From Sipunculus nudus (taxonomy: Eukaryota > Annelida > Sipuncula > Golfingiida > Sipunculidae): 64,000 nucleotides of DNA. The translations under genes and the position numbers were made by a program. Shown one piece after another: positions 9,921 through 59,931 of this stretch. Within the stretch, counting starts at the first letter, position 1; each line of letters starts with the position of its first letter. The DNA is taken from positions 71,693,618-71,757,617 of the forward strand of contig CM049317.1 of assembly GCA_026874595.1 (NCBI GenBank), written 5' to 3'. Under the pieces are notes generated by a model, which was not told the DNA's origin, ran no database searches, and was given only the letters and a program-made list of their open reading frames with translations.

Positions 9921-9990
9921 ATGAAGATTAAATCCAGTTGCCAGAACCTATTTTGTGCCTTATTTTGTACTTTCCTCACTCAGGTATCAG
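9921..9990 (+). CDS. Exon 1: signal peptide
   Basis: ATG opens 23 codons plus one base, then the donor G/GTAAGT. The peptide has a basic start (MKIK), a hydrophobic core (LFCALFCTFLT), and with the next exon reads QVSA/FDC, an ideal small-x-small signal-peptidase site. An in-frame ATG at 9855 exists, but it would put a polar 22-residue stretch ahead of the signal sequence, so 9921 is preferred. CATTACAG just upstream of 9915 could be the acceptor of a 5' non-coding intron. Confidence 0.7.
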
Positions 9991-12900: not shown

Positions 12901-15900
12901 GAACCGTTTGACCGATTGGACCAAAATTTTGCATGTGTATTGATCTCGCATAGCTCTTCATCATAGGCAAAACTGGTGGCGCCATCTGCAACCATTTTTG
13001 CACAGCACCCATCTGTTCATCTGCCTTGGGATAAAATCACTCATATCTCAGAAGTGGTTTGACTTATCCACCTGAAATTTAGCAGGTTTATACATCCTGG
13101 ACAGCCTTCTTGATTTTATAACAAGTGGCGCCACCTGCAACCACTTATGAACACCGTCCATCTGTTCATCTGCCTTGGAATAAAATCACTCATATCTCAG
13201 CTTTGGTTTGACTTATCCACCTGAAATTTTGCAGGTTTATACATCCTGGACAATTTTCTAGATTTTATGACAGGTGGCACCACCTACATTCACGTTTACG
13301 CTGCAGACATCCTTGATAACATGCAACACACCTCACTCTATTCCCCTTGCCACTTAATCCATGCCTCACTTCACCCATCCCACTCTGATTTCTGCGGATA
13401 CACAGTCGCTTGTCGACTACCCATATTCTAATTTTAAAATATCCTAGTCTGAAACTTGCAGGTCCAAAATGTCCATCTTGCTGAAATCATAATGACTAAG
13501 GTAGATATGCAGGACTTTAAAGGATCAATATTAAATTTTAAAAATAAACCTCCATTCATACTCCCAAACTTTGCACAGGTTTGCGTTAGGCCTGTAGGCC
13601 TTGTTTATTATTGACATGTTATATTGTTTTTTTAGAGATTATTGAATAGTTGTCCTTCCAGAGAGGTTAGCAATTGTATATGATAATTTTTGATTAAAAT
13701 TGATTTAAAAAGATATTAATATATACATGTAAAAGAAAAAAAAATGACATACAATTTTATAAAAAGTGTTAAAAACATGTTTTAAAACAGGCCATAATGT
13801 TACAGGTCGTGCTTGTCAGCTGAGCATCATTACCCTTTGATCATTTGTTGAATTTGTAGAGACACAATGACATTGTACATTGGGGAAAAAATTTGCCTCA
13901 AGTCCTTTTAATTTCTCACTACCAATGATTGTAGCATAAATATATTGAAAATCAACTAGTCCTTGTCTTTGTGCTTCATTGCACAGACTTATTTTAACGT
14001 TTGTTTCTTTTGTCTTTCAGCTTTTGATTGCAATTCAGTCCAGAAAAAATGTCCTGACGGTTCTTGTGTCAGCATGACAAGCCGCTGTCGTAAGTAAAGA
14101 TGTAAAACGTACCTATAAGTGTCATGACCGATCATCAGTTATAATTGATGATTAGTCAATACACACCACTAAAAATATGAATGACCAGGTTCTTTTAAAA
14201 GTCAAATCAAATGGCTGAAACACTCACATAAGTACACTCCAAAAACTGAATAAGACCTATGTTAACAGAACAAATCAATATATTAAAGAAAGAAGACACT
14301 TACATTCTCTAGAGAGGTGCTCCATATGTACAAGCACTGATGATTATTAACAACCGATAATCAACACAGAAACAAGCACCAAGTCCGTTAAACACACTAC
14401 ACAGAGGTACAGTTCACACAACACACAGACTATTCTGTCTGGACTTAGAATCAATGTCTTTCACAGGTTATGTCTCATGGAATCATCCAGCTCTAGGTAA
14501 CCGAATATTCTTCCACACAACGACATCCAGTTACGATTTTAATAAAGTCCCCAGTATGTTCCTGGAAGTGCTCACAACAGGTATAATCACCAGATTATCA
14601 GGCCGTCGGCAAAATATGACACTCTCTCTGAAGTCTGTAACAAAGAAATAACCAGTCCTCAGACATTTACTGTCTACTCTTACAGACATCCTTTCTCAGC
14701 TGTCTAGACTCTTTAATGCACACAGACCCGCACCTGGACTACAGGCAGTACCACCCTGGCATCCTGTTTGGGCATATGTTTCGAACATCCCCTTCATCAG
14801 GACTTGTATTTGCATGCAGACATCACAAGTCCTGACCGTCCTCTGGCCAATCACCACTCCCTATTATGCCGACCGCCAATAACAACATGAATTCTAAAAT
14901 GGACATGCCTGCAGAGATAAAACCCTTAGAAAACTAAACTAAACAGGTGCTAGTACTTTGAAGTGTACAAAGAACAATAGTTTATATAGAGACCACCAAA
15001 CAGAGATGGCTTCGATGGAATTAAACTGTACTGAAATAACATCAAATGAGACGTGCTCTCTAACCAAAACTCTCACACTTATATCCAAAAATGATACTCC
15101 ATATAAATGTACAGTAATTTATCAAAACAATCATCTGGTTATACTCCCTACTTCAATATGCAATACAATGTCTAAGTCACAGTTCTCTGGTGACAGTCAG
15201 CTGATCATGTAGATGATCCATTGATCAGTTTCCCATCGCCACAAATGATTACAGAGGTTTCACAAAGGCTTGGCTTTACAGTGATGTAATGTATACTTTC
15301 ATAAAATTTATGCTACGAATTGATGGTGGTAACCGCCTCCATTTTTATATGCCCGTCATATGACAGGAGTATTATGGTATACCTACCAATTGTCCGTCCG
15401 TCTGTCCGTCATGCTGTCCATCCCTCCATTAATTTTTAGATCAGCTGACTATAAGTCATCTGAGCTATAGACGCGTGGTCCATTGTCCCTCGTCCGTCCG
15501 TCCGTAGATGTGGCACATTTTAATAACAAATTAAAGAAAAGTAGAAAAGGAATTTGTTAGTTTATAATAACAGAAAATTAACTTGCAGTTACTGATGATA
15601 TAAGAATCTTGTATCCATGGATAGAATGTCACATATTCCAAATAACACCATGCAGTATTTTTCAGTTCAATTTTAATGATAAAAAAGTAAATCATATTAT
15701 TCATTACTAATCATTAGGGATCATATGAAGGAAATTAATGATAGACAAAGATGCAGTTGATAATATTAATCTAGATTCCTACTGTGTCTAGTGTGTACAT
15801 TGATGTGAAATAAGTCCAAAATGAATATATTACATTTATTTTTTTTAACATAAATAAAAGCCATAAAACCAGGTACTTATGATCATTATTTAAATGTGTG

Positions 15901-18411
15901 AATTTTGTATATTCTGGATTCTCAACATCATTGTTTGGTGAAAACTATATAAATACCAGACATGGTGCAAATACTTGGCAATTGTCTTTAAATATGAATA
16001 TTTACTCCATTATAAAATTTCTTGCATAAAGAATGGGAATTCAGGTAAAAATGAAAGTATATGAATACCAGTGCAAATACTTTCAAAATGTATTCATGAA
16101 TGCATTCATGAATATATTCTTTAATATTATTTTAATAATCATTTCAGTTATATTTCATTATAAAAAATCATACAATTCTCTTATTATTTTTAATAAAATT
16201 TATATTTGGGACAATATTTGTAATTTTTTTTTTAATAAATAGTTAAACTCTTATATTACATGTTCTGCTTATAAGTTATATGGCCAAGTCAAAATCTGTG
16301 TTACAATAGTACTCCATTTGTTAATAAAATAAATGAAATCAGTCCTCTTCCCTGTCTCCAAAGGTACTATCAAAATCATACATAAGCTAAACAACAACAA
16401 CTCATAATACAGCTTATATTTATTACTACACAAAACCAGCATGTGCCTCATTTCTAAATCATGTTTTTTATCATATATAACAGCTGAGCGCCGTGACCCA
16501 TAGGTCCCTTGTTTAAAGATATGAAAGATTTTGATAAAACTCATCAGAAATGTTAATCAGTAAAATTTCTGGGCTATGTTTGATTTCAAGCAAAATCCAT
16601 GCATTATATGAGGTCAGAGGTCACCACACTTTGGAGGCATCATGGTGACTTACCAAAACGCCATTGGATTTTCATGAAACTCAATATACATATTTACTAA
16701 CTCAGATTCTCACCTGAATTACCTTCTCATCCAAATTCATGCATACTTAATGAGGCCAGAGCTAACCCGATACACGACAGGCGTATTATGCATTTTTGGG
16801 GTGCTCTTATTTAATGCTTGCTTAACTATGTATATGTGCACATGCAGAATTCCATTCAGGTTTCTAACTACATGACAGGGCCTTACACACAATATACCTG
16901 GTGTCAGCCATGCTTGGTGTATCACCCCTGTGGGTACTGGGTGTGTGTCATCCCCATAGCTGGGTCATACCACCGAGGTACCCCTGAAAGGAGCACTCAT
17001 TTGTGAGTGAAACAGCTGTTTGTCACAGTCTTACATTAAGCCTGCGGAGCACTCACACTTGGTGGGGCTGACCATGAAAATCTCAACACTGAGATTTGAG
17101 CTCACAAACTATCAGCCAAGAGCCCTTTACTCTAAACCTAGACCACAGAAGTGGTTAACTTCTTGATTATTACTAGCTGCTTATATTTTTAATATAATTA
17201 GTATTATTTATAAATTATTATAAATTTAAATTTATTAAGCAAAATTATTATAAATTTTATTAGAATTATTACTAGCACATAAAATCTGGAAATGAGTCAT
17301 CGTCCTCTTTGACACTTTCATCCTCATTAAAGATACTGCTACTAACAGGCCATAGACTTACCCTTTTAAATAAAAATGATTTATACAATTTTCATATATA
17401 CAAAGTAGAAGTCATATCATTCTGTATGCTCTTCTGAACAGAATGACCTATACAACATGGCTTGCTAGACAACACATGACTCTCACTTTTGAAGTTGACA
17501 AAGTCAAGAATTTTTCAGAAGGATACCAACACCATAGGTGCAGCCATAATAAGGAATATTTAGAAAATGAATCTGTAGACATTTCTATAAAACACATTGA
17601 TTCATACTTTATGTACATTTCAGCTGGTGAGTGTTTTGCTTGGCAGAGAAAATGTCCTGATGGTATGTGTGTGGATAAGATAGTGGGACAGTGTCGTAAG
17701 TATTGATAAAGCCACACCCGTTGTGTAACTGCAAGGATTTGTTGTTTTTAATTTCCTATTAAATTATTGGGGATAAAAAACATAAGAATGTCTTGTGATT
17801 TTGTTTATAAATATAGTACTTTACTGCCAAGAGTGGTTAAACAGGGGCAAATAGAACATTTAAGAATACGATGACTCAACTGAAAAGTGAGACTGAGGGT
17901 ATGGGATCGGGGTGATTTAGAAATTAAAAAAAAAAAATGGTGCAATCTAGGGAAACTGATAATGGTACAGTATGCAAAATCTGGCACAGCATTTCTTTAT
18001 ATGTGTGTATTGTTCTATTTCCCACCCTTTTGGGTCAAATTAATTCCCGGCCCTAAATCTGCCCCTGGGGACGGGAGAGAGGTTAAAATTTGTTAGCGGG
18101 AGTTTCAGATCTGAGGTAGATTCTGGAGACATGGGGACAAAATCACCTCCAAGAATATTTCAGAAAACAACATTTTTTTTACCCCACCAATTGCAGCCAG
18201 ATTCATAGGTCACATGCTAAATCAGATATATTTAACAGATGCTGATTGGTTGATATTTCCACTTCCCTGCTTACAGAAAGATATTTGTACCATGCAGGGC
18301 AACATGTTGTTCATCATTATATGTTAGTTTGAGGCCCTTCGGGTCCCAAATGCTCTTAGTTACTGAGAGGTTGGACTCATTGTAAATTGAAATATGAAAG
18401 GAATGGACAGA

Positions 18412-18493
<82 letters not shown>

Positions 18494-21400
18494 TATAGAA
18501 TATTTGTTTTTACATATGTTTTAAATTGTTAATACTAATAATCAGGTTGGTTAATTGTTTAGAAAATAATTTATTTAAAAATTGAGATATTGTCAAACAG
18601 AGTGCCAGATAACCTTTTGATGATGTATTGCTCGGCCTTTAGGAAAAGGTTTACCCTCCTCTGCAAAAGATGTGGAATTCAATAGCGCTATGTTGGAGTA
18701 ATTTATAAGTGGACTGGACCCTTTCTTTTTCAGCCGGAGAATGTGCACGGTGGGAGAGGAGATGTCAAGGTGGCAAATGCGTGAGCAAAACAAAACCTTG
18801 TCCTTGTAAGTAATGACATCGTATATAAATGGAAACAGTTGAATAGTTTAGCTGAATTAAAAGTCATCTGAGCTAGAGTGATGGTCCTATGTTCTATTGA
18901 TCATCAGTCTGACTCTGTGTCAACATTGAACAAATCAACTCATTACAGTTTCAGACCTGAAATTTTGTACACACATGGTTAAGGACAAAATATAGTTCAC
19001 AGAGGGATTCAGGGCTGTATATGCAAAAATATTAATAATTGAAAAAGAATCAATTTCAGTCAAATCGGTGGGTTGCAATTTAGTGCAAAGATAATTTGAT
19101 GCACTTCTTACAATCCTACAGGATACCATTCGAATCAGAAGCGAATCTGTAAAAATACATTATTAACTGGCCATGAATGTTATCAAGAGGATACAGAGAT
19201 ATTGTCATTTGATCTGTTCAGAACAAAATTCTGTGTCTATATCATAACTAAGCTCCTCCTGTAGAAGTTGTACACTCTAGTTGTCTCAGATATCCTTTCA
19301 TGTAACCACTGCATTATATGGCAAGGTTCTCTGGTCTGCAACAACAGGGTGAGCACAGAATTGTAATCAGACTACTAAAGCGTTGTATTGCACTGTGCAT
19401 CCAGCCTAAATTTTAAACCTGTGACACCGGCTCTCGTTGGTTTAATTACATGGGAAACGCTCTCATTGGTCAGATTCTTGGCCCTGTGCCAAAACGGGGG
19501 TTATCAGATCAACGTGTCATATATAACATGGTGCAGTAAATGATAAATCTAAAATTACTGTGTATTTTGTGGTAATTTATTTGAATTATAAAAATTTTTT
19601 ATTGGGGCCACATATCGGCCATATTGATACCCTCATATTGATTACTCTCAAGCCAGTGTTGAGACAATACAAATCAGAGTGGTTAATAATAAAATAATTA
19701 AATGGCTTGTATATCAGGAATATTTTACAGACTATATTCCATATCTTTACAGTTTTGATCCTGCTTGTGTGATTTTGAGATTCAGGTAAATTTTTTTTTA
19801 TAGTCTTATACTACTCTTTAACAGATTTCAGGTGTGAATGGTATGAAAAAAGATGTCCAGATGGCAGCTGTGTCAGGGATATCACAAGTTGTCGTAAGTA
19901 TGGATGCAAAATTGCATTAGGACATCATTTTGCAGCAAATCTACTTGCGTAACCATTCATTGTGATATGATGCAGCAGAGTATATTCTTTAAAGTCAGTG
20001 TTTTGCGCAGGATAATTATTTGTGATCTTCACCTTCAGGGTGCTAGATAGGGCTGGGACGGTTACCCGTATCTTGTATTTTCATGATTTTTGACAGCTAC
20101 AGAAATCATACCATCAACTTTCCTATTATCGCGATATCACATTATGCATTTTTGTCCATGACATATGTTCACAAGCAAGCCCTTGAAGTGTATTTTCTAG
20201 GGAAACTGGCATCATTAGAGTCTGTCAATGTTCAAAATCATGTTCATTTGCAAGAATCACATTTATTAGCTCAGCTGACTGAAAGTCATCTGAGCTATAG
20301 CGATCACTCTTTGTCCGTCGTCCGTCTGTCCGTATGTCCGTCCGTTAACCAGGCACAAATCATAACCGCTGAACCTAGAACCTTGTAACTTGGGATTCTG
20401 AGAGGTCCATGAGAAAACTCCTTGGAAACCAGAAATTAGGTCTCTGTTACCCATATCCTTCGAGCTATGGGGCCCCAAAGTACCCCCCAGAATCGTAAAA
20501 AATTTCATATAAAAACTTCAATATCTCAATAACTACAACACTGATGGTCATGATTTTTGGCATACATATTGATCATGAGATGTTCCATAAGTTCCTGCAG
20601 ACTGGTGGCGCCACCTGTATTTTTCGATTTTTTTACAATTTTTTCCTCTATTTTTGAGACGTTTAAAGATGCTGTCATCTGTTAACGTGGCACAAATCGT
20701 AACCGCTGGACCTAGAATCTTCATTCTTGACACACTGAGAAACCTATTCAAAGTCTCCGTGGTAACCATAAATTAGATCTCTGTTACCCATATCCTTCGA
20801 GCTATGGGGCCCCAAAGTACCCCCCAGAAAAGTCAAAAATTTAATACAAAAACTTCAATATCTCATTAACTACTTGACTGAATGTCATGATTTTTGGCAT
20901 ACGTATTGATCATGAGATGTTCCATCACTTCCTGCAGACTGGTGGCGCCACCTGAATTTTTCGATTTTTTACGAATTTAAAAATGTGAACAGCTGTTAAC
21001 AGGGCATAAATCATAAAGACTGGACCTAGAATCTTCATTCTTGACACACTGAGAGGTCCATAAAAAGTCTGCATGGAAACCTGAAATAAGGTCTCTGTTA
21101 CCCATATCCTTTGAGCTATGGGGGGCTCCCAATAACCCCCCAGAATAATGGAAAATATGATAAAAACAAACTGCAACATCTCAATAACTACAACACTGAT
21201 GGTCATGATTTTTGGCATACATATTAATCAAGAGGTGTTTCATCAGTACCTGCAGACTGGTGGTGCCACCTGTATTTTTTCAAATTTTCACAATTTTTTT
21301 TTCTCTATTTTCGAGACCTTTCAGGATGTAGTTATCTGTCAACAGGGTACAAATCGTAAGGACTGGACCTAGAATCTTCATTGTTGACACACAGGGAGAC

Positions 21401-24400: not shown

Positions 24401-26134
24401 TTCTCCGGGTTTTTTAGGGATTCTCCGGCTTTTATGTAGTTATTGGAAACATGGTGAAAAGTTCTCACAAGAGTAATTTGATGTTCAGGGCAGGAGTTCA
24501 CGTGCTTCAAGCTGGCACACCTGCAGCGACTTCATGCAACTTACATCACTTAATGAGTGAACCTGTGGTACTGACACAACGGGTATAAATGGCATTAATA
24601 GATACCCCTTGTATAAAGTCAAGACTGTAAGGGTGGTTGTTTTAAATAATATTATTGATGGCTCATTTATGGCATTATATATTATTAATGATATCGCAAT
24701 ATCATGGTATATCACGATAAAATTTAAATAATTATCATGATATCATAAACTGAGATTGTCCAAACACTAGTGCTAGATGTGTCTTTGATTACCTGGGAAG
24801 TCCTTGAAAATGGCCATTTTAGACAGTGTTTTTAGCTCAGCAACTGAGATATAGGAATGGTGCTTTGTCCGTTGTATGTCCGGTTGTCCAGGCATCATTT
24901 AGCAAATCACAAATCATAACTACGGACCCTAGAAGCTTCAAAATGAACATCCATGGAGGTCAATTAATCTCTTTGGAAAGTTGAAATCAGGTCACTGCGA
25001 CCTATATCCTCTGACTGCTTGTAAGTGCCCCCCAGAATAATAAAAAAAAATTGATAAAAAACCTCCAGTATCTTAATAATTAATGCATGGATTACCATGA
25101 ATCTTGCCTTGAATGTTGACCATGACTAGCTTTGACAGTTTCCAAAAACTGGTGTCACCACCTGTATTTTTTCTAAAGTTAATAATTTTATTTTCTATTT
25201 TTGAGCAATTATGTCAGTTTCTCAGCTGTGGTTTCATATAGTTGAACATGTATATGTTTTGAAATTAAGCGAAAGTTTCAATGAAAATGGTTAGACGTCA
25301 GTTGCAAAATACAAATCCGGTCAATTTGAGGGAACCAAAAAATGTTTGTTTGCCATTGAATGGAGCTCTCAACTATTATAATTCTAAATGTTCAGTCATG
25401 CACATTCATAAACTGACACAAATGTCCTTCATCAGAGTTCAAGTACAATTGCCATATTCAATCATTATGATCAGTTTTTTTCTCTTAATTATTTCATGAT
25501 AATAATCTTGTCCTTGAAAATGAAATAAGTATTGGAAATTTTTGTGGCTTATGATTTGATAAGCTCACGGACACAACAGGAAAGAACTCCAAGGACAGTG
25601 TCATGTTGAGAATCTGTCTATGGAGAGAGTTTGGTGGCCAGTAGACTGGTGTTTTCCCAGTAGAAGCTGGAGTAGTTACACTCTGGAGTTGACGATGCCC
25701 TCATCCACAAATTGTAGTATGGATTTCACTTGCAATTTTATCAGGGTGGGTTTTAGTGGTTCGTCCAAGGTTGGCTGTTTTCCCTTGGTCCCCTTGTTTC
25801 TTCTGCCTCTGCTGCCCACTGAACAGCACCATGAGAGCTGTGGAGAATACCTCACATTAGTTATTATAATTATTTGTACAATCCATGTAAAATAGATAAA
25901 GTGTTTCACTGGCTAAGTTGTGCAGTAGTATTTACTTTAAAGTTAATTTAATCTCCTTTGTCTTCTGCTTTTCAGCTGGTGGTTGTCAACCTGGGCAGAA
26001 AAAATGTCCAGACGGTAAATGTGTTGACAGATTAAGAGGAAATTGTCATGAGTACAACTTACTGATATATATACAGTAACTTTTAGCTTAGCTGGCTTCC
26101 TGTCATGCTGATATATAAATAAATAAATAAATAA

Positions 26135-26188
<54 letters not shown>

Positions 26189-38100: not shown

Positions 38101-41100
38101 AATGAAAAAAATGGATATGCTAAAAAAATAGGCTTATATATAAACTTAATTGCATTATTCCCTTGAAAGTGAAATAAAGGTATTAGTCCATTCTGTCCAC
38201 TTGCCTGTCCATCTGTAAATTTTTCATATGCATCACAGTATCTCAAAACTTTTACTGTTTTTCTTCATGACATTTTTGTCAGAGTATTAGTTTGCAATCA
38301 TATATTGAGAACTTTACTATAACCAAGTAGGAGGGCCCTTTCCTCTTAGCTTCTCATATGCTTATGTAGATGAAAAACATTACAATAGAATATTTTTCAT
38401 ATTTTGCATTTGCAAAAATTTCAAACTTAAGCTGGTTGTCATGACCCATGGGTCTTTTGTTTATATTCTGGATTCTCAACATCATTGTTTGGCTAAAACT
38501 GAATAAATTGCAGACATGGTGTGAATACTTGGCAAATGTATATGAATATGAATATGAATATGTACTCCATTATAAAATTTCTTGCTAAGAATGGGAATTC
38601 AGGTAAAAATGAAAATATTTGAATACCAGTGCAAATACTTTCAAAATGTATTCATGAATGCATTCATGAATATATTCTATAATATTATTTTAATAATTGT
38701 TTCAGTTATATTTTATTTTAAAAAATCATATGATTCTCTTATTATTTTTAATAAAAATTATATTTGGCACAATATTTGTTATTAAATTTAAAAATATAGT
38801 TAAATTCTTATCTTATATGTGCTGCTTATCAGTTATATGGCCAAGTAAAAATCTGTATGACAGTAGCACTCCATTTGTTAATAAAATAAATAAAAACAAT
38901 CAATCTCTTCCCTGTCTCCAAAGAAACTATCAAAATCAAACATAAGCTAAACACCTACAACTCATAATACAGCTTATATTTATTTCCACACAAAACCAGC
39001 ATGTGCCTCATTTCAAAATCATATTTTTTTATCATATATAACAGCTGAGCGCCGTGACCCATTGGTCCCTTGTTCTCTAAAAGTCACCATGCACATGCTT
39101 GGCTTCAGCCTGTTGCATTAGATTGAACTGACACACAAAAATGTAAAGTTGGTGCCTCGCTGTACATGATCAGATGATCAGGCACGCTGTTACTTGGAAA
39201 CGAGCAGTGGGAGTGAAGCATGGGTACAGCGCACAGATCTAAAAGTAACTATATTTGTACAGTGGGCATACATTTCAGCGTGATACTTGAAATATTCTAA
39301 ATAATCATTCAACGAGTCTAGGTTAACTTTTCCTATGGCTGAGTCCGCTAGGACATGTAGATAAACATTGGATGATTATTCCAAGCATTTACCTGTCATG
39401 GTTTAAATTTGGTCTAAAATAATATTGGCGGATGAGAGCAGGGGGAAGCCTCGACCCCCCCTCCCCCTGGATCCTAGCCTGAAGCGAGGCTAATATCCCA
39501 CATATTTGAAAAAAATAATCAGCCCAGTCGTTTTTCCAAACTGCTGAGGACACATTGCAAAAAATGATCTCCTTTGTCTTCTGTTTTTCAGCTGGCGAAT
39601 GTTCCTCAGGGGAGAAAATATGTCCAGATGGTAGATGTGTAGGCAGAACATACGGACGTTGTCGTAAGTCTATCTTATGTCTACAGTTCTCTCAGCTCCT
39701 CTATTAGATATTGCCATGGGGCAGCATTATGTATATTTTTACGTTTTGAGCTCGTAGAAAGTCAGAATAGAAAATTGAATTAAATCTAAAGGATCCCAAT
39801 TCACAGGCCTAAATATAAATTACCTTATTTTTGAGGTAGCGGCCTCCATGCTTTTATGCATAGTCGTCAATTCAGAATATTGATTTCATTTTATGTGTAC
39901 CATAGGAACTCTCCAGCATCTCATTTCACCTTTGAGAATTTTCGCACCAAAGAATCATGGATTCTCCAGATGTTTGGTCTATTGAAAGCAGTTTTATAAG
40001 AAGCAGATTTTATATCTTAACCATTTAAAATTCTATGAAAAATTAATTTTCAAGCTTGATTTCAACACTAGGAGAATTTTGAATCAAGGAAGTAGAACAG
40101 GGCTTTAAGCTTAAGCATCTGTGATGCTAATTATCTCAATCAGACACTTGGTCCTGGGAGTCCAGGTATCTGACTTGCTGCAGAAATTTCTGGCTGTTGG
40201 ATCCAGAGGATAAAATTGCTCTTCTAGCAGTTACATGCCACTTCCTCTAAGCAGTACATTGTGAAACTAAACAAATACCATATTTCCTTGATCAGACGCT
40301 GGGCCTTAAATAGTCGCATGCCTTATTTAGTAGCCAGGCTGGGACAATGTCTTAGAAAAATAAACTCTGGCCTTAAATTGATGCCAGGTCTTGTTAAGAG
40401 GCTGGGCACCTGAGACGTTTTTATGTTTGCCTCAATGCCTTTACCCGTCACCATGATGTGTGCATGTACCAGTCATATTGACCCAAGAAGAATGTCTATC
40501 TTTTAAGCGAACCTTTGAGCTTATGCTAGGGCGCATCGTAGTTGGTCTTTCGTCATTCATTGTCTGTTCATTAACCCATTCTATCTCAAAAAGCATCAGA
40601 GCTAGCAGCGCCAAATTACATGGAAGAATCAGTCACAGGTCAAACTCTATCAGATTTTGCTTGTTTTTTTTGCTATCTGCATTAACTTAGATTTTATATG
40701 CAAAAAGCTAAAAAAAACTTTAAAGATCTTCTTCTCTGAAACTGTGCAGCCAAATTGTTCAAATTGTTCAGAAATAATCTCTGAAACAATGTCTCTCAAG
40801 TTTGTTCGAATGGTTCATAATGTTGGTCACATGACTCATATTTGAAATTTAGGTATTGGTTGTCCACCTTCATCGACCTTTGTTGTACGGGGGTCATCAG
40901 TCATCAGTAATAAACCATTAATTTCTCAGAAATAGTTGGAGCTAGCATCCCAAAATTTTATGCAAAAATCTGCCACATGTTTTGTGCAAATGTTGGTCAC
41001 ATAACTCATATTTGAAATTATATGCACCACCTACATTGACATGTTTTTTACAGACAAAAACAGTAATTTAGCCTCTTTCAGCTTAAAAGTGTTTTATGAT

Positions 41101-53100: not shown

Positions 53101-56100
53101 ATGTTCAAATGTGATAAAAATAATCAGATCCTAGACCAGTTCTCATCATGATGTCTGTAATGTTAATAATTGTCTTAAGACTCATGCTATGTTTAGTGTG
53201 TAGATATGTGAATATTATAGGTTTAGTTTCTAAATATAAAATAAAGCCATAAAACCAGGTACTTATGATCATTTATTTAAATTTTTTAAATTTGTATATC
53301 CTGGTTTCTCCACAATTTGTTTGACTGAAACTGAATATATAAAATTTACATGATAAAATAGACAAAATTGTGTATACTTGCAGGTTCAGGCCATCAGGCA
53401 AGAGCCCTCCATTTCCAAATGTAAATAATATAAATGACATCAATCTTCTTCCCTATATCCCAGAATTTTTTCCAAATATTACATAATTTGAGTTTAACAC
53501 AATCATCTTATAATACAGCTTATATTACCACACAGAACAAGCATTTGTCTACCCCTTCTTCCAAATCCTATTTTGTGATCATGTATAACAGCTGAGCACC
53601 GTGACCCATGGGTCCCTTGTTCTTCCTGATTGTAAGAAACTTACGAATTTGTTTTTCATAGCGGGAGAATGCAAGTATGGGCAGAAGAAATGTAGTGATG
53701 GGTCATGTGTGGATAAATACACTGAACGATGTTGTAAGTATACAGACTGCCCTCATATATCTTAATGCAGTTAGTGAGTTTATCCTAATTAGCCTCTGGT
53801 ATTAAGAACTCAAGATTATTTGATATGTTTTATAGTTGTATTAGTATTTAGTAATTAGTATTAAACATTTTTGCATTTACATCTAATTTGTGGATGAGCA
53901 TGCTTGACACCAGATCATGTACTTTTTATATACAGTGAAACCTGTGTAATAATATCACCTGTGGGACTAGTCAAAAGTGGTCATGATTCACAGCTGGACC
54001 TATTAGACAGGTCAGTTAAAAGCAGTGTGAATGCTTTTGGTTCGCTCAAGGGTGGTCTTAATGGACAGGTGGTCTTATTAGACAGGGGGTCTTTCAGAGA
54101 GGTTCCACTGTGTAATGCATCAAGCAGACATAGCAATCCATAGACTGTGATGACATTTTATCTCCCGATTGAATTATTGTCTTTGCCTTTACATTATTCA
54201 TAATGCTATACACAGTTGGAATATAGAAGTTATATTAAAATTTGTTTAAAATATTTTATTGATATAATAAGTGACAAAGAATACTGTGATCTTGACGTGA
54301 ATATGAAGTTAGGGACTGAGTGCAGACCTGAGGGCTTACCAGTAGATTATCCATCAACATTTATTATAGTAAATTTTCTGTTTTCCAGTAATATATATAG
54401 CCAAGTACATATGATAATAGTTAAAAATGTGGGCCAATATTCTTCATTAGTCTTGTAAAGGTAAGCAAACCACCCTTCCAGGCTGTAGATAAAATGATTT
54501 CAAAGCAATAAGCTAATAAGTACCGTTAACTGCTTAGTGACCTTTTACCTTGCCGGTATATGATTAACATGGCACTTGTAAACTGTTATTGAATTAAGTA
54601 CAGCTTTTGATTGGCGGGTGAAATATCATCATTGTATCAACACAGAGACCTCTAATGATATCAGTATTATAATTTACGTAGTGTATCTTTACAGCCCTAG
54701 CAGTCATGCTTTGAACTTGATAGGGGGATTTTTGTTATATCACAATTTCAAAATAAGCATTATATACCACTGTAAAGTTTGCTGATACACATTCTTTTGT
54801 GACCAAACTGTGTCCTCAGATAGCTATCTCTTGAATGGAAACTGGCCTCAGGGTATTTTGTATCCCATGCCTGCACCCTTATTGAACCCTGACAGGTTCA
54901 TTCCTCTCAGTTTCTTGAAACCCCACATGTGGGCTGCCATACACACTAACACTTGGAGCACCTGCTGTATATCAAAACTATGGTGATATATCTGGAATTA
55001 TAAATTACATTATACATGGATATTTGTTTTTAATGAAAATTTTACATGATATAAGTCACATTATACATGAATAAAATCTGAATATGATGATTTTCTTGAT
55101 ACACGAATATTCATGCTCTTGTTGAAAATCTTGACATATTATAATTTTCACAATTCATAAATATTCATGAGGGAGAGTATATATACCATTGAAACAAGTG
55201 AGATATTTTGATTAATATGTCCTTCCTTTTAGAATAAATAACATTTTATTTACATTGTATATTAATATTCATAGTAGGAGGTTCGTGCCCATCAGGGAGA
55301 CCAATTGGATGTAGTGGAAGCAAGAAGTGCATATCCAGGTATCGTAAATGTGATTCTAACAGTGACTGTCCTCAGGGTGAGGATGAAAAAGGATGCGGTA
55401 GGTGAAACTTTAATATTACAGAATTTTGTTGTAAGGCAAAAAACAAAAAGGTTGATTTCTCAGGCACTGTGTGCATCAGTTTTGACCCCCTGCATCAAAC
55501 AATTTTATGTTTCCCCTCCCCTGCAGTGGCAGTCCGTAGTCTGTGTCATCATTTGTGTCCTTTCTTGTGAAAATGCTAATGTTTGGATGACTCAGTATTT
55601 TTCAAGTTCTCCATTGATTTAGAATATCGGTGACCTTGTCCTGGATCTTCAAGTTCTTTGTTTCTAGGATTTCTTGTGAATGTGATATCTAACATTTGAA
55701 GCATGCACTGCATATTCTTTCCTGAAATTTGACAAACAGGCTGTTTGGTTTTAGTTCAGCTGACGAAAAGTCTAAAAGGCCAGGCTTTATCTCTCTGTAT
55801 AAAACGAAAACCTTTTTCACACCATACCATAAAAAAAATGTGTGTTCTTGTAAAAGCATTTTTACCCTGCAGTCAGGTTAGGATATATCATTTTGTTTAA
55901 AAGAAAAATCCTTGTTCTCAAATCCAGCTGGGGATCATGGTCCATGGGATAAAAACATGTCAGCTGACTATTAATCAGCGCTTGTGAGTGATGATTCAGG
56001 AATAGTAATAAAAAACAGACCTAATTATTGTAAAAATTGATGATCACTTTATATATTGCTACCATTGAAATTATTATTACATTTTGTCCATTTTTAGCGA

Positions 56101-59100: not shown

Positions 59101-59607
59101 TGATTCAACAAGTTTTCCCTCATTGCTTTAAAGTTTTCATAGATTATTCTTGTCATTGCAGCTTCTTCAATGTCAAACTGGTGGTATTTTCTGCTGATTC
59201 CAGTATTCTTCTTTATATTAATTTGTATGTGCATATACAAGTGTTGCAAATATAAATCAGGTGAGTACAGTAACTGTTAAAGCCAAATATTACATACCAG
59301 GAATATTAAATATACATGAATTGTAGTGTATTCTTATTAGAATATTATGGTATTGCTCAATATTTCATTCTAAAAACTGTTTGCTTACTTCTTTACACAA
59401 GTGGAAAAAAAACTTGCACCTGGTGTGACAAGTTGTACAAAATATAAACATAGCACAAGCCACCTGGTGGCCATACCATACAACTACACCAGTCGAGAAT
59501 TTTCAAGCTTCCAACCAGTGTTTCTTCCATATTTGTCACCCACTCCGCTAATCCTGTTGACACCAGTGACACCTGACCCACACACCCATTGGAAAAAATT
59601 AGATTGA
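9921..59607 (+). CDS. Multi-exon gene: type I membrane protein with nine half-LDLa modules and one LDLa domain
   Basis: Thirteen exons (listed separately) join to 1128 coding bases, 375 residues plus stop. Every junction is phase 1, so each internal exon is symmetric and can be skipped without a frameshift. Residues 1-24 form a signal peptide, 24-233 nine four-cysteine modules, 234-274 an LDLa domain, 275-307 the transmembrane exon and 308-375 the tail. Seen directly: splice signals, cysteine spacing and the hydrophobic segment. Known: LDLa domains bind calcium and protein or lipoprotein ligands. Inferred: a cell-surface binding or uptake receptor; the ligand is unknown. Exon 6 has a defective donor, so the functional message may omit it (351 residues). 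No named family with this module array comes to mind. The first and last exons are the least certain. Confidence 0.72.
12084..12147. repeat. Nested TCTAGA/GACGTC palindromes
   Basis: TGTCTAGACGTCTAGACA, itself nearly a perfect palindrome, occurs twice with related half-copies on either side, separated by CAGTG/CAATG. It can fold into alternative hairpins. Confidence 0.7.
12240..13320 (+). repeat. About 278-bp tandem repeat, array 1
   Basis: The marker CATATCTCGGGAACCGTTTG recurs near 12335, 12611 and 12888, giving a 277-278-bp period. A sub-repeat with TCATCTGCCTTGGGATAA also recurs. Most units carry the palindrome AGGTGGCGCCACCT or a near copy. Short minus-strand frames in it are repeats of each other, not genes. 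Confidence 0.8.
14021..14089 (+). CDS. Exon 2: mini-module 1
   Basis: The acceptor is TTTGTCTTTCAG and the donor C/GTAAGT; 69 bases, phase 1 on both sides. It encodes residues 24-46 with C-NSVQKK-C-PDGS-C-VSMTSR-C. The spacing matches the first four cysteines of an LDLa domain. It follows the signal peptide directly and so starts the mature protein. Confidence 0.8.
14090..15341. other. Intron 2, unclassified unique-looking stretch
   Basis: No element ends or coding exons are recognisable. The region from TGTCATGACCGATCATC (about 14117) onward could be an old LTR or MITE, but no matching second end was found. Confidence 0.4.
15342..16812 (+). mobile_element. ATATGCCCGTCATATGACAGG family with nested insertion
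   Basis: The start is a hairpin (ATGCCCGTCATATGACAGG) followed by GTCCGTCCGTCTGTCCGTC. The end, GACAGGCGTATTATGC then GTGCTCTTATTT, lies at about 16785-16812. The element at 15433-16514 is inserted near its 5' end. This is a third family with the same hairpin-plus-TCCG-tract head. Confidence 0.5.
15433..16514 (+). mobile_element. AGCTCAGCTGAC-family element, 1.1 kb
   Basis: The head is TTAGATCAGCTGACTATAAG then TCATCTGAGCTATAG and a CGTCCGTCCGTCCG tract. The tail is CAGCTGAGCGCCGTGACCC, ATAGGTCCCTTGTTT. The 3' half matches 38463-39074 closely, including a perfect 24-bp palindrome at 16091-16114. Confidence 0.7.
16813..17623. other. Intron 2, 3' part, no recognised feature
   Basis: Mostly AT-rich. 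The stretch about 16870-17150 looks like a degenerate short interspersed repeat, but no polymerase III promoter boxes could be assigned. Confidence 0.35.
17624..17695 (+). CDS. Exon 3: mini-module 2
   Basis: The acceptor is ATGTACATTTCAG and the donor C/GTAAGT; 72 bases, phase 1. It encodes P-G-E-C-FAWQRK-C-PDGM-C-VDKIVGQ-C. The Pro of the PGEC linker comes from the split codon, a pattern shared by most modules. Longer frames on both strands across this exon are chance extensions into intron. Confidence 0.8.
17696..18733. other. Intron 3
   Basis: No coding or element ends are seen. It contains a long TA microsatellite (18412-18492). Confidence 0.5.
18412..18492. repeat. TA microsatellite
   Basis: About 80 bases of almost pure TA with one TTTA break near 18447. 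Confidence 0.9.
18734..18805 (+). CDS. Exon 4: mini-module 3
   Basis: The acceptor is CTTTCTTTTTCAG and the donor CCTT/GTAAGT; 72 bases, phase 1. It encodes PGEC-ARWERR-C-QGGK-C-VSKTKP-C-P. The usual PDG after the second cysteine is QGG. The exon runs one codon past the last cysteine, so the following linker starts with Tyr instead of Pro. Confidence 0.75.
18841..19130 (+). repeat. 5' fragment of the AGCTCAGCTGAC family (intron 4)
   Basis: TTTAGCTGAATTAAAAGTC then ATCTGAGCTAGAG is a worn copy of the family head; no 3' end follows. The rest of intron 4 (to 19824) shows nothing recognisable. Confidence 0.4.
19825..19893 (+). CDS. Exon 5: mini-module 4
   Basis: The acceptor is CTCTTTAACAG and the donor C/GTAAGT; 69 bases, phase 1. 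It encodes Y-F-R-C-EWYEKR-C-PDGS-C-VRDITS-C. A second AG seven bases downstream (TTTCAG) would break the cysteine frame and is rejected as the acceptor. Confidence 0.78.
20430..22300 (+). repeat. About 335-bp tandem repeat, six units
   Basis: TTACCCATAT recurs at 20448, 20784, 21099, 21441, 21780 and 22119 (spacing 336, 315, 342, 339, 339). Each unit also holds TGGACCTAGAATCTTCATT and CTGCAGACTGGTGGCGCCAC or variants. Small frames on both strands repeat unit by unit and are not genes. Confidence 0.85.
22405..23860 (+). repeat. About 278-bp tandem repeat, array 2
   Basis: The marker GCTCATATCTCGGGAACCG or a variant starts at about 22413, 22694, 22972, 23250, 23537 and 23801. It is the same family as 12240-13320, although that array belongs to an element with a different head. 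The palindrome AGGTGGCGCCACCT or a variant is present in each unit. Confidence 0.85.
24830..25240 (+). repeat. 5' fragment of the AGCTCAGCTGAC family
   Basis: TTTTTAGCTCAGCAACTGAG then TTTGTCCGTTGTATGTCC is followed by one worn 335-bp core unit (CCCCCCAGAATAATA, ACTGGTGTCACCACC). No 3' end was found. From 25240 to exon 6 nothing else is recognised. Confidence 0.5.
25976..26047 (+). CDS. Exon 6: mini-module 5, donor site lost
   Basis: The acceptor TTCTGCTTTTCAG is strong and the 24 codons are intact: PGGC-QPGQKK-C-PDGK-C-VDRLRGN-C. At the expected boundary, however, the sequence is TGTC/ATGAGT where other modules have TGTC/GTAAGT, so the donor GT is AT. Nearby GT dinucleotides give either a frameshift or loss of the last cysteine. 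Because the exon is symmetric, skipping it would keep the frame. It is either a dying exon, an assembly error or a rare non-canonical splice. Confidence 0.6.
26100..26205. repeat. AAAT and TA microsatellites
   Basis: An AAAT run (about 26115-26140) passes directly into TA repeats (to about 26205), about 60 bases past the broken donor of exon 6. A worn family head (TTTTAGCTTAGCTGGC) precedes it at about 26082. Confidence 0.8.
26505..27770 (+). mobile_element. AGCTCAGCTGAC-family element, copy A, 3' end lost
   Basis: The head TTTTTAGCTCAGCTGACTG starts a segment collinear with 36645-37800 (GGGCATGTTTTGAAACCATG, CAACCAACAG, GAATCTTTTATT). Similarity stops where the TIR element at 27771 begins. 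Confidence 0.65.
27771..29388. mobile_element. DNA transposon with about 28-bp terminal inverted repeats, 1.6 kb
   Basis: The left end TACCATATTTACCTGTGTAT then AAGGCGAT is answered by the right end whose complement reads TACCATATTTACCCATGTAC then AAGGCGAT (about 25 of 28 match). The left neighbour is GTATAT and the right TATATA, so a TA-type duplication is possible. No transposase is readable, so it is probably non-autonomous. Confidence 0.65.
29389..29640. repeat. Segment similar to the region of the proposed last exon
   Basis: TTATGGTATCTGCCAATATT, AAAACTATTTACTTACTTCT and TACACAAG line up in order with 59343-59401, and weaker similarity continues into exon 13. Here the sequence after CACAAG is TAAAAAAAAC, so the tail frame is not kept. 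It is either a copy of the exon region or a shared repeat. Confidence 0.5.
29890..29949 (+). CDS. Exon 7: short mini-module 6
   Basis: The acceptor is TGTTTTGATCAG and the donor C/GTAAGT; 60 bases, phase 1. It encodes PGEC-RAGQKK-C-KDGS-C-RYR-C, so the last loop is three residues instead of six or seven. The frame and all four cysteines are kept, consistent with a clean 12-base deletion. Confidence 0.75.
29950..30734. other. Intron 7, 5' part
   Basis: No gene is seen. A worn repeat head (GTCAGCTTAGCATT then CATCTGTCCGTTTGGCTGTC) lies near 30402. Confidence 0.4.
30735..31545 (+). repeat. Segmental duplication, copy A (contains exon 8)
   Basis: The order GAATTGGGACAGTGAAC, GGTCTTCTCTG, ACCTCCCATATATGAATAAT, GGATATACAAGGACAACC, then exon 8, then CATGGGGCAGCGTTAC is repeated at 33600-39765. 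Identity looks high outside the exons too, so the duplication is comparatively recent. Confidence 0.8.
31356..31427 (+). CDS. Exon 8: mini-module 7 (duplication copy A)
   Basis: The acceptor is TTCTGTTTTTTAG and the donor C/GTAAGT; 72 bases, phase 1. It encodes PGEC-SSWQKK-C-QDGR-C-VSRFSGR-C. The exon and its flanks are duplicated at 39592; the two exons share the linker, SS start and G-R-C end. Confidence 0.8.
31640..33560 (+). pseudogene. 5'-truncated L1/Tx1-like LINE fragment (intron 8)
   Basis: The fragment starts within the reverse transcriptase (GRYIGE-like region), continues through KAAFDSVD and RGSRQGDPSAPYLF, and shows FPDDCT where the catalytic FADD box should be, so one catalytic-loop residue is changed. 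It then decays through stops and shifts. At 33191-33475 a C-terminal zinc-binding domain (zf-RVT type) is still open: CSYC, then H and C (VQHLFYEC). It is related to the LINE at 47635-51457 and is dead. Confidence 0.8.
34470..36480 (-). pseudogene. hAT transposase, DUF4371/zf-TTF type, decayed
   Basis: This would be the DDE-type transposase that mobilises the element. From 36480 downward: an N-terminal segment with AVMAFTQR; LGRQGLALHGHRDD followed by SNRGNLREL; then ILDFRYTERGTAAHLAWLI and CGLNPDEVRGQL near 35700; and a C-terminal hAT dimerisation region near 34570 (VTSCEVEQSFSTVRCVK, LRSTMGQ). Stops and shifts separate these pieces, so it is inactive. The family call rests on recognising this order of motifs. 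Confidence 0.75.
36645..38462 (+). mobile_element. AGCTCAGCTGAC-family element, copy B
   Basis: The head is TTTTTAGCTCAGCTGACTAT then AAGTCATCTGAGCTATAG and GTCCGTCGTCCGGCCGTC. The tail is AAGCTGGTTGTCATGACCC then ATGGGTCTTTTGTTT. It is collinear with 26505-27770 for about 1.1 kb. It lies inside the hAT element. Confidence 0.7.
38463..39074 (+). repeat. 3' part of an element like 15433-16514
   Basis: It is collinear with about 15905-16514, starting at TATATTCTGGATTCTCAAC and ending in CAGCTGAGCGCCGTGACCC, ATTGGTCCCTTGTT. The head is missing, which suggests the copy at 36645-38462 landed in, or replaced, its 5' half. Confidence 0.65.
39592..39663 (+). CDS. Exon 9: mini-module 8 (duplication copy B)
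   Basis: The acceptor is TTCTGTTTTTCAG and the donor C/GTAAGT; 72 bases, phase 1. It encodes PGEC-SSGEKI-C-PDGR-C-VGRTYGR-C. Most differences from exon 8 change the residue while all cysteines are kept, so both copies look coding. Confidence 0.8.
39766..40275. other. Intron 9, no recognised feature
   Basis: No repeat ends, exons or long frames are recognisable. Confidence 0.4.
40276..42952. mobile_element. TIR element TACCATATTTCCTTGATCA, 2.7 kb, with nested repeat
   Basis: The left end TACCATATTTCCTTGATCAG matches the complement of the right end (TACCATATTTCCTTGATCAA). Subterminal sequences (AGACGCTGG, TTAAATAG) also mirror each other. Element 40501-41992 is inserted in it. The 42080-42740 part is shared with 44850-45350. 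No transposase is recognised. Confidence 0.65.
40501..41992 (+). mobile_element. AGCGAACCTGTGAGC-family element
   Basis: The head TTTTAAGCGAACCTTTGAGC and the tail GGCCTGTAGGCCTTGTTT match the ends at 11281-13606. Inside are units with ACTGGTGGTGCCACCTACAA and a short repeat AGGTCAAGAGTTCACTCAGT (about 41230-41400). It is non-coding. Confidence 0.6.
43128..44694 (+). mobile_element. AGCTCAGCTGAC-family element, 1.6 kb
   Basis: The head is CTTTTTAGCTCAGCTGACTA then GTCCATCTGTCTGTCTGTCC. The tail is CAGCTGAGCGATGTGACCC, ATGGGTCCCTTGTTT. It is related along its length to 26505 and 36645 and supplies the full-length 3' half for the fragment at 9190-9364. Confidence 0.7.
45361..47627 (+). mobile_element. 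AGCTCAGCTGAC-family element with AGGTCA-rich section
   Basis: The head is TTTTTTAGCTCAGCTGACTT then TCTGTCCGTCCGGCGGGCCG. The tail is CAGCTGAGTGTCATGACCC, ATGGGTCACTTGTTT. From 45700 to 46290 it holds repeated AGGTCA words at short spacing, within units that repeat about every 130 bp (ACCTACCAACAGGGGAAGA). It is non-coding. Confidence 0.65.
47635..49194 (-). pseudogene. LINE ORF2, reverse transcriptase part, truncated at its 3' end
   Basis: About 515 codons are open on the minus strand. Blocks in order: NAWRPISLLN, YAFVKGRYIGE, FAADLEAAFDSVEHDFLF, LDRGTRQGDPLAPYLFIMAI, then FADDTTIFV with the catalytic DD intact, and the thumb region. The frame then runs into an A-run (complement of 47625-47634) and into an unrelated repeat. 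The related fragment at 31640-33560 continues for about 260 more codons to a zinc-binding C-terminus, so this copy lacks that part. Belongs to the L1/Tx1-like group by overall pattern. Confidence 0.85.
49267..50389 (-). pseudogene. LINE ORF2, endonuclease part and linker, frameshifted
   Basis: This is an apurinic/apyrimidinic-type endonuclease that nicks the target. From 50389: LQILSLNVRGLRN, CFLQECHCV, VNTYAPN and WGGDFNVHL. After a frameshift near 49900 come RRLDYFLVSD and TDHSAVVLKVD near 49680. These are the metal-binding and catalytic blocks of the family in the usual order. A stop near 49510 and another break near 49267 separate it from the reverse transcriptase. Confidence 0.85.
50611..51457 (-). 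pseudogene. LINE ORF1, L1-type RNA-binding protein, broken
   Basis: ORF1 proteins of L1-like LINEs coat the element RNA. Reading from 51457: a Ser-rich basic N-terminus, a coiled coil (KMLDDLETKL to SELEEQNGKS), then the RNA-recognition block (LEQYSRKSNIRIFGVQE) and C-terminal domain (DIDAAHRAGK, RAIIVKFVRR). This order matches Transposase_22-type ORF1. A stop and a frameshift between 51208 and 51145 break the coiled coil. ORF1 precedes ORF2 by about 220 bases. Confidence 0.8.
52738..53129. other. Intron 9, 3' part, no recognised feature
   Basis: No exon, element end or repeat unit could be assigned. Confidence 0.4.
53130..53621 (+). repeat. 3' part of an element like 15433-16514
   Basis: GCCATAAAACCAGGTACTTA and the tail CAGCTGAGCACCGTGACCC, ATGGGTCCCTTGTT match about 15700-16514 with internal deletions. 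It ends about 40 bases before exon 10. Confidence 0.6.
53662..53733 (+). CDS. Exon 10: mini-module 9
   Basis: The acceptor is TTGTTTTTCATAG and the donor T/GTAAGT; 72 bases, phase 1. It encodes PGEC-KYGQKK-C-SDGS-C-VDKYTER-C. A transposable-element 3' end (53621) stops about 40 bases before the acceptor, so the branch-point region lies close to or inside repeat sequence. Confidence 0.78.
53734..55274. other. Intron 10
   Basis: No element ends are seen. Around 53936-54110 are short related phrases (ATTAGACAGG, GGTGGTCTTA) that look like a small degenerate repeat. Otherwise nothing is recognised. Confidence 0.4.
55275..55397 (+). CDS. Exon 11: complete LDL-receptor class A domain
   Basis: The acceptor is TTAATATTCATAG and the donor G/GTAGGT; 123 bases, phase 1. 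It encodes 41 residues with six cysteines: C-x7-C-x5-C-x6-C-x5-C-x8-C. After the fourth cysteine, D-SNS-D-C-PQG-EDE supplies the acidic residues that bind calcium in LDLa domains, and CISRYRKCD fits the family core. A TAG seen next to the acceptor is not in the used frame (split codon TTA). This is the only full LDLa domain in the window and sits next to the membrane segment. Confidence 0.82.
55747..55965 (+). repeat. Very short, worn AGCTCAGCTGAC-family copy
   Basis: The head TTTTAGTTCAGCTGACGAAA and a degraded tail (CCAGCTGGGGATCATGGTCC, ATGGG) are about 200 bp apart, suggesting a deletion derivative. Confidence 0.35.
56091..57740 (+). mobile_element. AGCGAACCTGTGAGC-family element, core copy 3
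   Basis: The head is TTTTTAGCGAACCTGTGAGC. Repeating units hold GCTAGCATCACCAAATTTTA, GTTGGTCACATGAGTCATAT and GGTGGCACCACCTGCATC. It closes with the short AGGTCAAGAGTTCACTCAGT repeat (about 57700). The 3' terminus is not clear. It is non-coding. Confidence 0.55.
57741..59161. other. Intron 11, 3' part
   Basis: Contains one isolated core-like phrase (GACTGGTGGTGCCATCTGC near 57998) and a worn repeat tail (GAGTGTCATGGCCC near 58654). No coding signal is seen. Confidence 0.4.
59162..59260 (+). CDS. Exon 12: transmembrane segment
   Basis: The acceptor is TTGTCATTGCAG and the donor TCAG/GTGAGT; 99 bases, phase 1. It encodes residues 275-307: a polar start (ASSMSN), a roughly 20-residue hydrophobic run from WW through ILICMCIY, then a basic, cysteine-containing inner edge (KCCKYKS). 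The charge pattern gives an outside N-terminus. The two juxtamembrane cysteines could be lipid-modified (inference). Phase match on both sides supports it as part of this gene. Confidence 0.7.
59402..59607 (+). CDS. Exon 13: cytoplasmic tail and stop
   Basis: The acceptor is TTGCTTACTTCTTTACACAAG; 206 bases to a TGA. Read in the frame set by exon 12, it adds 68 residues beginning V-E-K-K and is rich in Pro, Thr and Tyr (VAIPYNYTSREF, LSPTPLILLTPVTPDP). A nearby intronic segment (29389-29640) is similar, so this exon may have come from, or been copied into, a repeat. The antisense strand is also open for 124 codons. Another terminal exon further downstream cannot be excluded. Confidence 0.5.
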
Positions 59608-59931
59608 CATCATTTGACCCATGCGTCCATTGGTTGACCTTGATTTGATTTGCATAGACATCTTCTAACCTCTGACCCCCTTGTGACTGTCTGACCGTTG
59701 TTTTTGCATGGCAGAACAATCCCGCTTTGGCGGGCTGCTCGTAATACCTATCATCAAAGTAAACCAAAGAGCAAAATATTTGTATTTAACTTACCAAACA
59801 AATTATCTGCATTCACTGATCAGGCCATATGCATTTTAAATGTGCCAGTTTTTACCATTTGAACCAAATCATAAGATATAACCAGGTCTAATAGAGTGCC
59901 AGCAATGTCAATATTTTACATTGTCAGTAAT

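Follow-up and report, generated by a model that had tools for sequence, protein, structure and literature searches.

The window analyzed here, a stretch of 64,000 nucleotides from Sipunculus nudus (contig CM049317.1), harbors on its + strand a predicted receptor-like gene, in which nine small exons each encode a short module with four cysteines, followed by exons for one complete LDLa domain, a transmembrane segment and a putative cytoplasmic tail. Judged from the letters of the window, 12 or 13 exons constitute one open frame between positions 9921 and 59607. The exons, together with the basis of each assignment, are as follows.

9921..9990, + strand: exon 1, ATG and signal-peptide-like MKIKSSCQNLFCALFCTFLTQVS, ending in phase 1 with the donor GTAAGT (by eye)
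14021..14089, + strand: mini-module m1, FDCNSVQKKCPDGSCVSMTSRC (profile and splice letters)
17624..17695, + strand: mini-module m2, GECFAWQRKCPDGMCVDKIVGQC (profile and splice letters)
18734..18805, + strand: mini-module m3, GECARWERRCQGGKCVSKTKPCP (profile and splice letters)
19825..19893, + strand: mini-module m4, FRCEWYEKRCPDGSCVRDITSC (profile and splice letters)
25976..26047, + strand: mini-module m5, ATGAGT at the donor place, probably skipped (profile and splice letters)
29890..29949, + strand: mini-module m6, short C3-C4 loop, GECRAGQKKCKDGSCRYRC (profile and splice letters)
31356..31427, + strand: mini-module m7, recent duplicate pair with m8 (profile and splice letters)
39592..39663, + strand: mini-module m8, recent duplicate pair with m7 (profile and splice letters)
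53662..53733, + strand: mini-module m9, GECKYGQKKCSDGSCVDKYTERC (profile and splice letters, structure model)
55275..55397, + strand: full LDLa exon, six cysteines (PF00057, E 1.7e-6, above cut-off)
59162..59260, + strand: transmembrane exon, SSMSNWWYFLLIPVFFFILICMCIYKCCKYKS (Kyte-Doolittle)
59402..59607, + strand: proposed cytoplasmic tail exon up to TGA, weakly supported (open frame)

The nine mini-exons (14021-53733) comprise 60-72 bases and one four-cysteine module apiece. Every one of them is a multiple of three in phase 1-1, with two codon-finishing bases after the AG and one base at the end, and eight of the nine are followed by a GTAAGT donor, the exception being m5. Inferred splicing without m5 yields a joined frame of 351 residues and a stop, with no internal stop codon. 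In line with a previous interpretation of this DNA, hereafter the sequence-only reading, exon 1 is signal-peptide-like as judged by eye, and the transmembrane exon reaches a top 19-residue Kyte-Doolittle mean of 2.49 and carries a basic inner flank. The single LDLa predicted there was likewise recovered, as the exon at 55275-55397 surpasses the PF00057 cut-off with 28.6 bits, or 30.3 bits together with m9. By eye, this exon displays the acids D-SNS-D and D-E (D, D, D, E), the putative calcium ligands. It is preceded by a NAGNAG acceptor (ATAGTAG, 55270-55280); use of the second AG after m9 would lead to an immediate TGA and possibly to a soluble form of the protein.

The regular exon array is real. 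Leave-one-out DNA profiles, each built from the other eight modules and run against the window, regained 9/9 modules with expectation values (E) of 2.2e-5 to 4.6e-16, and the strongest non-module match in the window reached E 0.28. Likewise, an eight-module profile retrieved the ninth module and nothing beyond it above the inclusion threshold within the window. Moreover, a strict in-phase pattern of AG, four cysteines and GT matched eight of the nine exons, m5 being missed for want of the GT. This pattern gave ten rows on the window, two of which are nested alternatives; the reverse strand and 60 dinucleotide shuffles gave no row.

Parts of the gene model are less secure. At the donor place of m5 the letters read ATGAGT rather than GTAAGT, and the nearest GT would result in a frameshift; therefore, m5 is probably skipped and the usable module count is expected to be eight. 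All nine half-modules of the sequence-only reading were found by profile, m5 being of doubtful use. Module m6 has three residues only from C3 to C4. The tail exon is the weakest part of the model: its acceptor reads AAG, its start lies inside a dispersed repeat (59307-59413) that is 78% like 29389-29491, and of 1186 sites in the window that resemble acceptors, 26, among them that of the tail, are followed by an open frame of at least the same length. Hence, the series of 13 in-phase exons originally proposed stands for the mini-exons, their phase, the LDLa and the transmembrane segment, and falters at the m5 donor and the tail. An antisense open reading frame of 124 codons (59393-59767, - strand) runs across the proposed tail and has no Pfam match at E up to 1. 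Pfam matches of the membrane-plus-tail piece to Alpha_E1 (E 0.0089) and WBP-1 (E 0.01), and of the joined protein to Orthoreo_P10 and DUF7657, were dismissed as lying below cut-off on hydrophobic or cysteine-rich stretches.

Such flaws could signify that the gene is in decay, the exons of a one-time receptor having escaped selection. Besides the m5 donor, the weak tail and the presence of a retroelement and tandem repeats in the introns, this notion draws on the modules m7 and m8, which share 84% identity over 288 bases, intron included, and differ to about equal extents in the exon (11/72) and the flanks (20/146), with the nonsynonymous rate (dN) being close to the synonymous rate (dS). On the other hand, 12 exons join without stop codon or frameshift, each of the four cysteine positions is kept in 9/9 modules, and GTAAGT donors follow eight of nine mini-exons. 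In addition, among the 15 pairs of six modules that remain when m1, m4 and m6 are left out, dS exceeds twice dN in six, stays below twice dN in five, including m7-m8, and is not estimable in four. We therefore regard decay as unlikely. By these comparisons, the old modules look constrained at their cysteines, whereas the young copies look free or diversifying; the m7-m8 pair and the dN/dS pattern are compatible with turnover of the array and also with early decay.

What the modules derive from was addressed by several sequence comparisons. The modules are 19-23 residues in size; in all nine, C1 to C4 and the G preceding C3 are invariant, and the D and the V after C3 are each kept in 8/9. The six cysteines of an LDLa domain form disulfides 1-3, 2-5 and 4-6, and calcium is bound by acids of the second half. 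In the nine mini-modules, cysteines 5 and 6 and the calcium acids are gone with this second half, a loss claimed earlier and visible in the module sequences, where four cysteines are present in 9/9. When the array without the LDLa was compared with Pfam (E up to 10), PF00057 was the sole family, matched by seven stretches, the best of which covers profile positions 2-25 of 37 (E 3.5e-4); the array scored 21.1 bits, under the curated cut-off of 24.1. The m7-m8 pair gave a weak match to PF02425 (E 0.14).

A profile search of the PDB with the nine mini-modules alone (E up to 1) returned four sequences, three of which are LDLR (E 0.094, 0.42 and 0.48) and the fourth a scorpion potassium-channel toxin (E 0.47). 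When the LDLa of the window was added to the profile as row ten, six matches were obtained, all of the LDLR family (E 0.09-0.56), a result biased by that row. As a control, an EGF profile matched 77 PDB sequences, the best 60 of which are EGF-type with teneurin first, and no LDLR is named among these best 60. Comparison by hhalign scored the nine modules at 60.8% against five LDLa modules and at 8.6% against five EGF modules. Since the hhalign E-values apply to one pair at a time and rest on very short alignments, these tests provide a ranking and not a proof. Taken together, the assignment of the modules as half-LDLa is supported, although no single test is strong: the exclusive PF00057 match, the three LDLR sequences among four PDB matches and the hhalign ranking speak for this identity, and the score of the array below the PF00057 cut-off speaks against it.

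One module, m9, was modelled as a hairpin, with block means of the predicted local distance difference test (pLDDT) of 87 and 88 for residues 11-30. Foldseek with this model listed, by our own count, LDLR-family structures in at least 29 of the best 50 of 58 rows, none of them significant; the count takes in 5oy9_D, identified via the PDB profile search. Growth-blocking and paralytic peptides are also among the rows listed, and VIA-align listed no match for the m9 model.

To find related proteins, a database of 5.8 billion proteins was searched with the joined window protein, with one of the relatives (P0005) and with the repeat region of another (P0027). The joined protein yielded five matches at E up to 0.01 from 1118 candidates (E 5.9e-5 to 4.2e-3), P0005 yielded 28 proteins, the query counted, and the P0027 repeat region seven, the query and one isoform counted. 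Each of the 15 relatives that were read consists of, or includes, arrays of C-x6/7-C-xDGx-C-V-x6-C, some copies being irregular. Four relatives originate from EukProt transcriptomes (P0027 and P0032-P0034, with P0032 outside the relatives read), and the source label of one is Trimastix. The C-terminal segment of P0027 is by eye hydrophobic, basic-flanked and membrane-anchor-like. In GTDB genomes, a query designated A1 produced 55 pattern matches and seven loci (L001-L007), five in metagenome-assembled genomes (MAGs) of Candidatus Melainabacteria, one in Caenarcanales and one in Neisseriales. The number of modules per locus that fit the strict pattern ranges from 3 to 23. Genome contigs scanned with P0007 gave 42 pattern matches and no relative. 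In viral contigs, the window array revealed no related locus, and 16 pattern stretches obtained with A1 included none that was confirmed. In the bacterial and metagenome sequences L001-L005 and P0005-P0010, a conserved helical domain with RSS..AR and CIP motifs comes after the arrays; that of P0007 was predicted mostly at block pLDDT 77-94, and the VIA-align rows for the P0007 model fall mostly on this helical C-terminal part, barely covering the modules.

Sixteen modules picked from four relative proteins aligned to the window modules with an hhalign probability of 96.1, and scored 86.6 against LDLa and 8.5 against EGF; in the PDB (E up to 1) all six matches were of the LDLR family. The tandem pattern C-x6/7-C-xDGx-C-x6/7-C is common to the window gene and the relatives, with m6 departing in the last loop, and the likeness rests on these short cysteine-rich modules. 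By Pfam, P0028 lies above the PF00057 cut-off and P0002-P0004 reach this family below it; the other 11 of 15 relatives have no PF00057 match, two of them (P0005 and P0010) showing EGF-type matches elsewhere. The searches suggested by the sequence-only reading bore fruit in part, the joined protein returning five matches, of which those read have module arrays, and the domain models returning PF00057, sub-threshold for the array. The uniqueness implied earlier finds no support, since EukProt proteins and bacterial MAGs likewise carry tandem arrays of comparable modules. That there is no named family holds for the collections consulted, as no dedicated model matched in Pfam for the 15 relatives scanned and none in NCBIfam for P0009, P0011 and the window array. 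At the level of listings and abstract openings, the literature offered no recognisable account of such half-LDLa modules.

Alternatively, the modules might not be derived from LDLa at all and represent a convergent four-cysteine hairpin, which would resemble the bacterial and protist arrays through convergence as well. Modules of merely 19-23 residues, the sub-threshold score of the array, the 11 of 15 relatives without a PF00057 match, as well as the growth-blocking and paralytic peptides in Foldseek and the scorpion toxin in the PDB search are all in keeping with this idea. It conflicts with the LDLR-family PDB matches of both the window mini-modules (3/4) and the picked relative modules (6/6), with the hhalign preference for LDLa over the EGF control in window and relatives alike, and with the full LDLa in the very same gene. 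Hence, we consider convergence rather improbable, yet to be taken seriously.

How the four cysteines would pair bears on the nature of the array. If neighbouring modules were cross-bonded, the array would form a continuous disulfide ladder instead of separate beads. From C4 of one module to C1 of the following one, the linker measures three residues at six of the nine junctions listed by a script whose regular expression at times slips register (e.g., at 4,6,5 spacing, and at m1 of the window), and the absence of C5 and C6 would leave C2 or C4 free to bond across modules. Tandem mini-modules mimic six-cysteine geometry, so that the script's six-cysteine count was not used. In contrast to a ladder, each module contributes an even number of four cysteines, which remains even when any single module is skipped, and the symmetric exons together with the broken m5 donor imply removal of single modules. 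Furthermore, linker lengths vary among the relatives, and the lone m9 module was predicted as a hairpin at pLDDT 87-88. A ladder therefore appears quite improbable to us. Given the even cysteine numbers, the module-wise exons and the variable linkers in relatives, two bonds within each module are favoured; these predicted internal bonds offer a better answer to the choice left by the sequence-only reading, a different fold or pairing between modules.

With moderate confidence, we propose that the gene encodes a receptor or adhesin of the cell surface that bears a variable array of calcium-free beads, each with two internal disulfides, and a basic face that may serve for polyanions. The product would be a single-pass surface protein with a signal peptide, eight usable four-cysteine modules, one LDLa, a membrane segment and an uncertain tail. 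Each mini-module would be an autonomous bead consisting of the beta-hairpin of the LDLa first half. Two bonds would most likely close it: C1-C3, which LDLa has too, and C2-C4, which would replace the lost 2-5 and 4-6 bonds. The beads would lack a calcium site, leaving the membrane-side LDLa as the sole calcium-binding unit; short linkers, most often P-G-E, connect the beads. The mini-exons are all symmetric (phase 1-1), so that modules could be gained, lost or skipped with the frame kept. K or R occupies the two positions before C2 in 9/9 and 8/9 modules, respectively, and the nine-module array has a net charge of +17 over 200 residues; we therefore infer that a repeated basic face may bind polyanions multivalently, sulfated glycans or the surfaces of microbes being examples.

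Instead of a signalling receptor, the product could mainly be a structural coat or a matrix adhesin. The large microbial relatives P0033 and P0034 are long arrays with ends that appear hydrophobic by eye, suggesting surface coats, and the tail of the window gene is weak; against this stands the clean transmembrane exon with its basic inner flank. We deem such a role possible, though less than probable.

The proposed receptor or adhesin can be compared with known systems. In most modules, cysteines 1-4 with C-x6-C-x4-C-x6/7-C spacing resemble LDLa (PF00057), as do the predicted C2-C3 hairpin with DG and the V/I after C3. Unlike LDLa, the modules have no cysteine 5 or 6 and no calcium acids, hold four cysteines per ~23 residues and form a net basic array. 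The gene shares with the LDL receptor/LRP family a signal peptide, cysteine-rich repeats and a single membrane segment, as well as phase 1 repeat exons, which are typical of that family. In contrast to that family, it has one true LDLa, its joined protein shows no Pfam match to EGF or the YWTD propeller (E up to 1; recognised exons only), and the NPxY motif is absent from the proposed, itself uncertain, tail. The unnamed arrays of EukProt and metagenome proteins (P0001-P0036) and of bacterial MAGs (L001-L007) resemble the window in their tandem C-x6/7-C-x-D-G-x-C-V-x6-C, as seen in those read, but their modules usually begin with C-P, lack the basic pair and are combined with other partner domains; the bacterial loci moreover differ in encoding the arrays in single uninterrupted frames. 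Growth-blocking and paralytic peptides (PF02425) have a similar small disulfide hairpin core. They are free cytokine peptides with one disulfide, and, unlike the window array, neither tandem nor membrane-bound.

Rfam and tRNA scans of the window gave no match. The m8-m9 intron contains a fragmented retroelement of the long interspersed nuclear element (LINE) type on the - strand (47584-51144), with reverse transcriptase (PF00078, E 2.1e-35) and endonuclease (PF03372, E 1.2e-6) matches. A gag-like open reading frame on the - strand (1974-2399) has a SCAN domain match (PF02023, E 2.7e-14); the adjoining frame at 1137-1733 has no Pfam match. Two tandem arrays (12414-13285 and 22408-23808), separated by ~10 kb, have a common unit of 277-278 bases, from which a separate array at 20400-22207 differs by its 339-base unit. 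In addition, direct repeats at 26557-27209 and 36708-37355 show 87-92% identity at a near-constant spacing of ~10.15 kb. These repeats represent dispersed elements or a segmental duplication, and a duplication may have aided the copying of exons.

Taken together, the array is a good lead and represents a known domain in an uncommon form, not a new kind. If the proposed reading is right, the array points to a repeat family that has escaped curation, being missed by the domain libraries used here or scored as sub-threshold LDLa, and the interest lies in this half-module family and its possible cross-kingdom spread. A far-reaching and at present doubtful extension is that the half-LDLa hairpin constitutes an autonomous calcium-free family, shared by bacteria, eukaryotic microbes and an animal-like genome. 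This family would be distinct from the LDLa with six cysteines and might predate it, with both forms present here as exchangeable phase 1 exons. Already under the proposed reading, LDLa would be reducible to its first half and still work as a repeat, which would change the view of LDLa evolution and of its calcium dependence.
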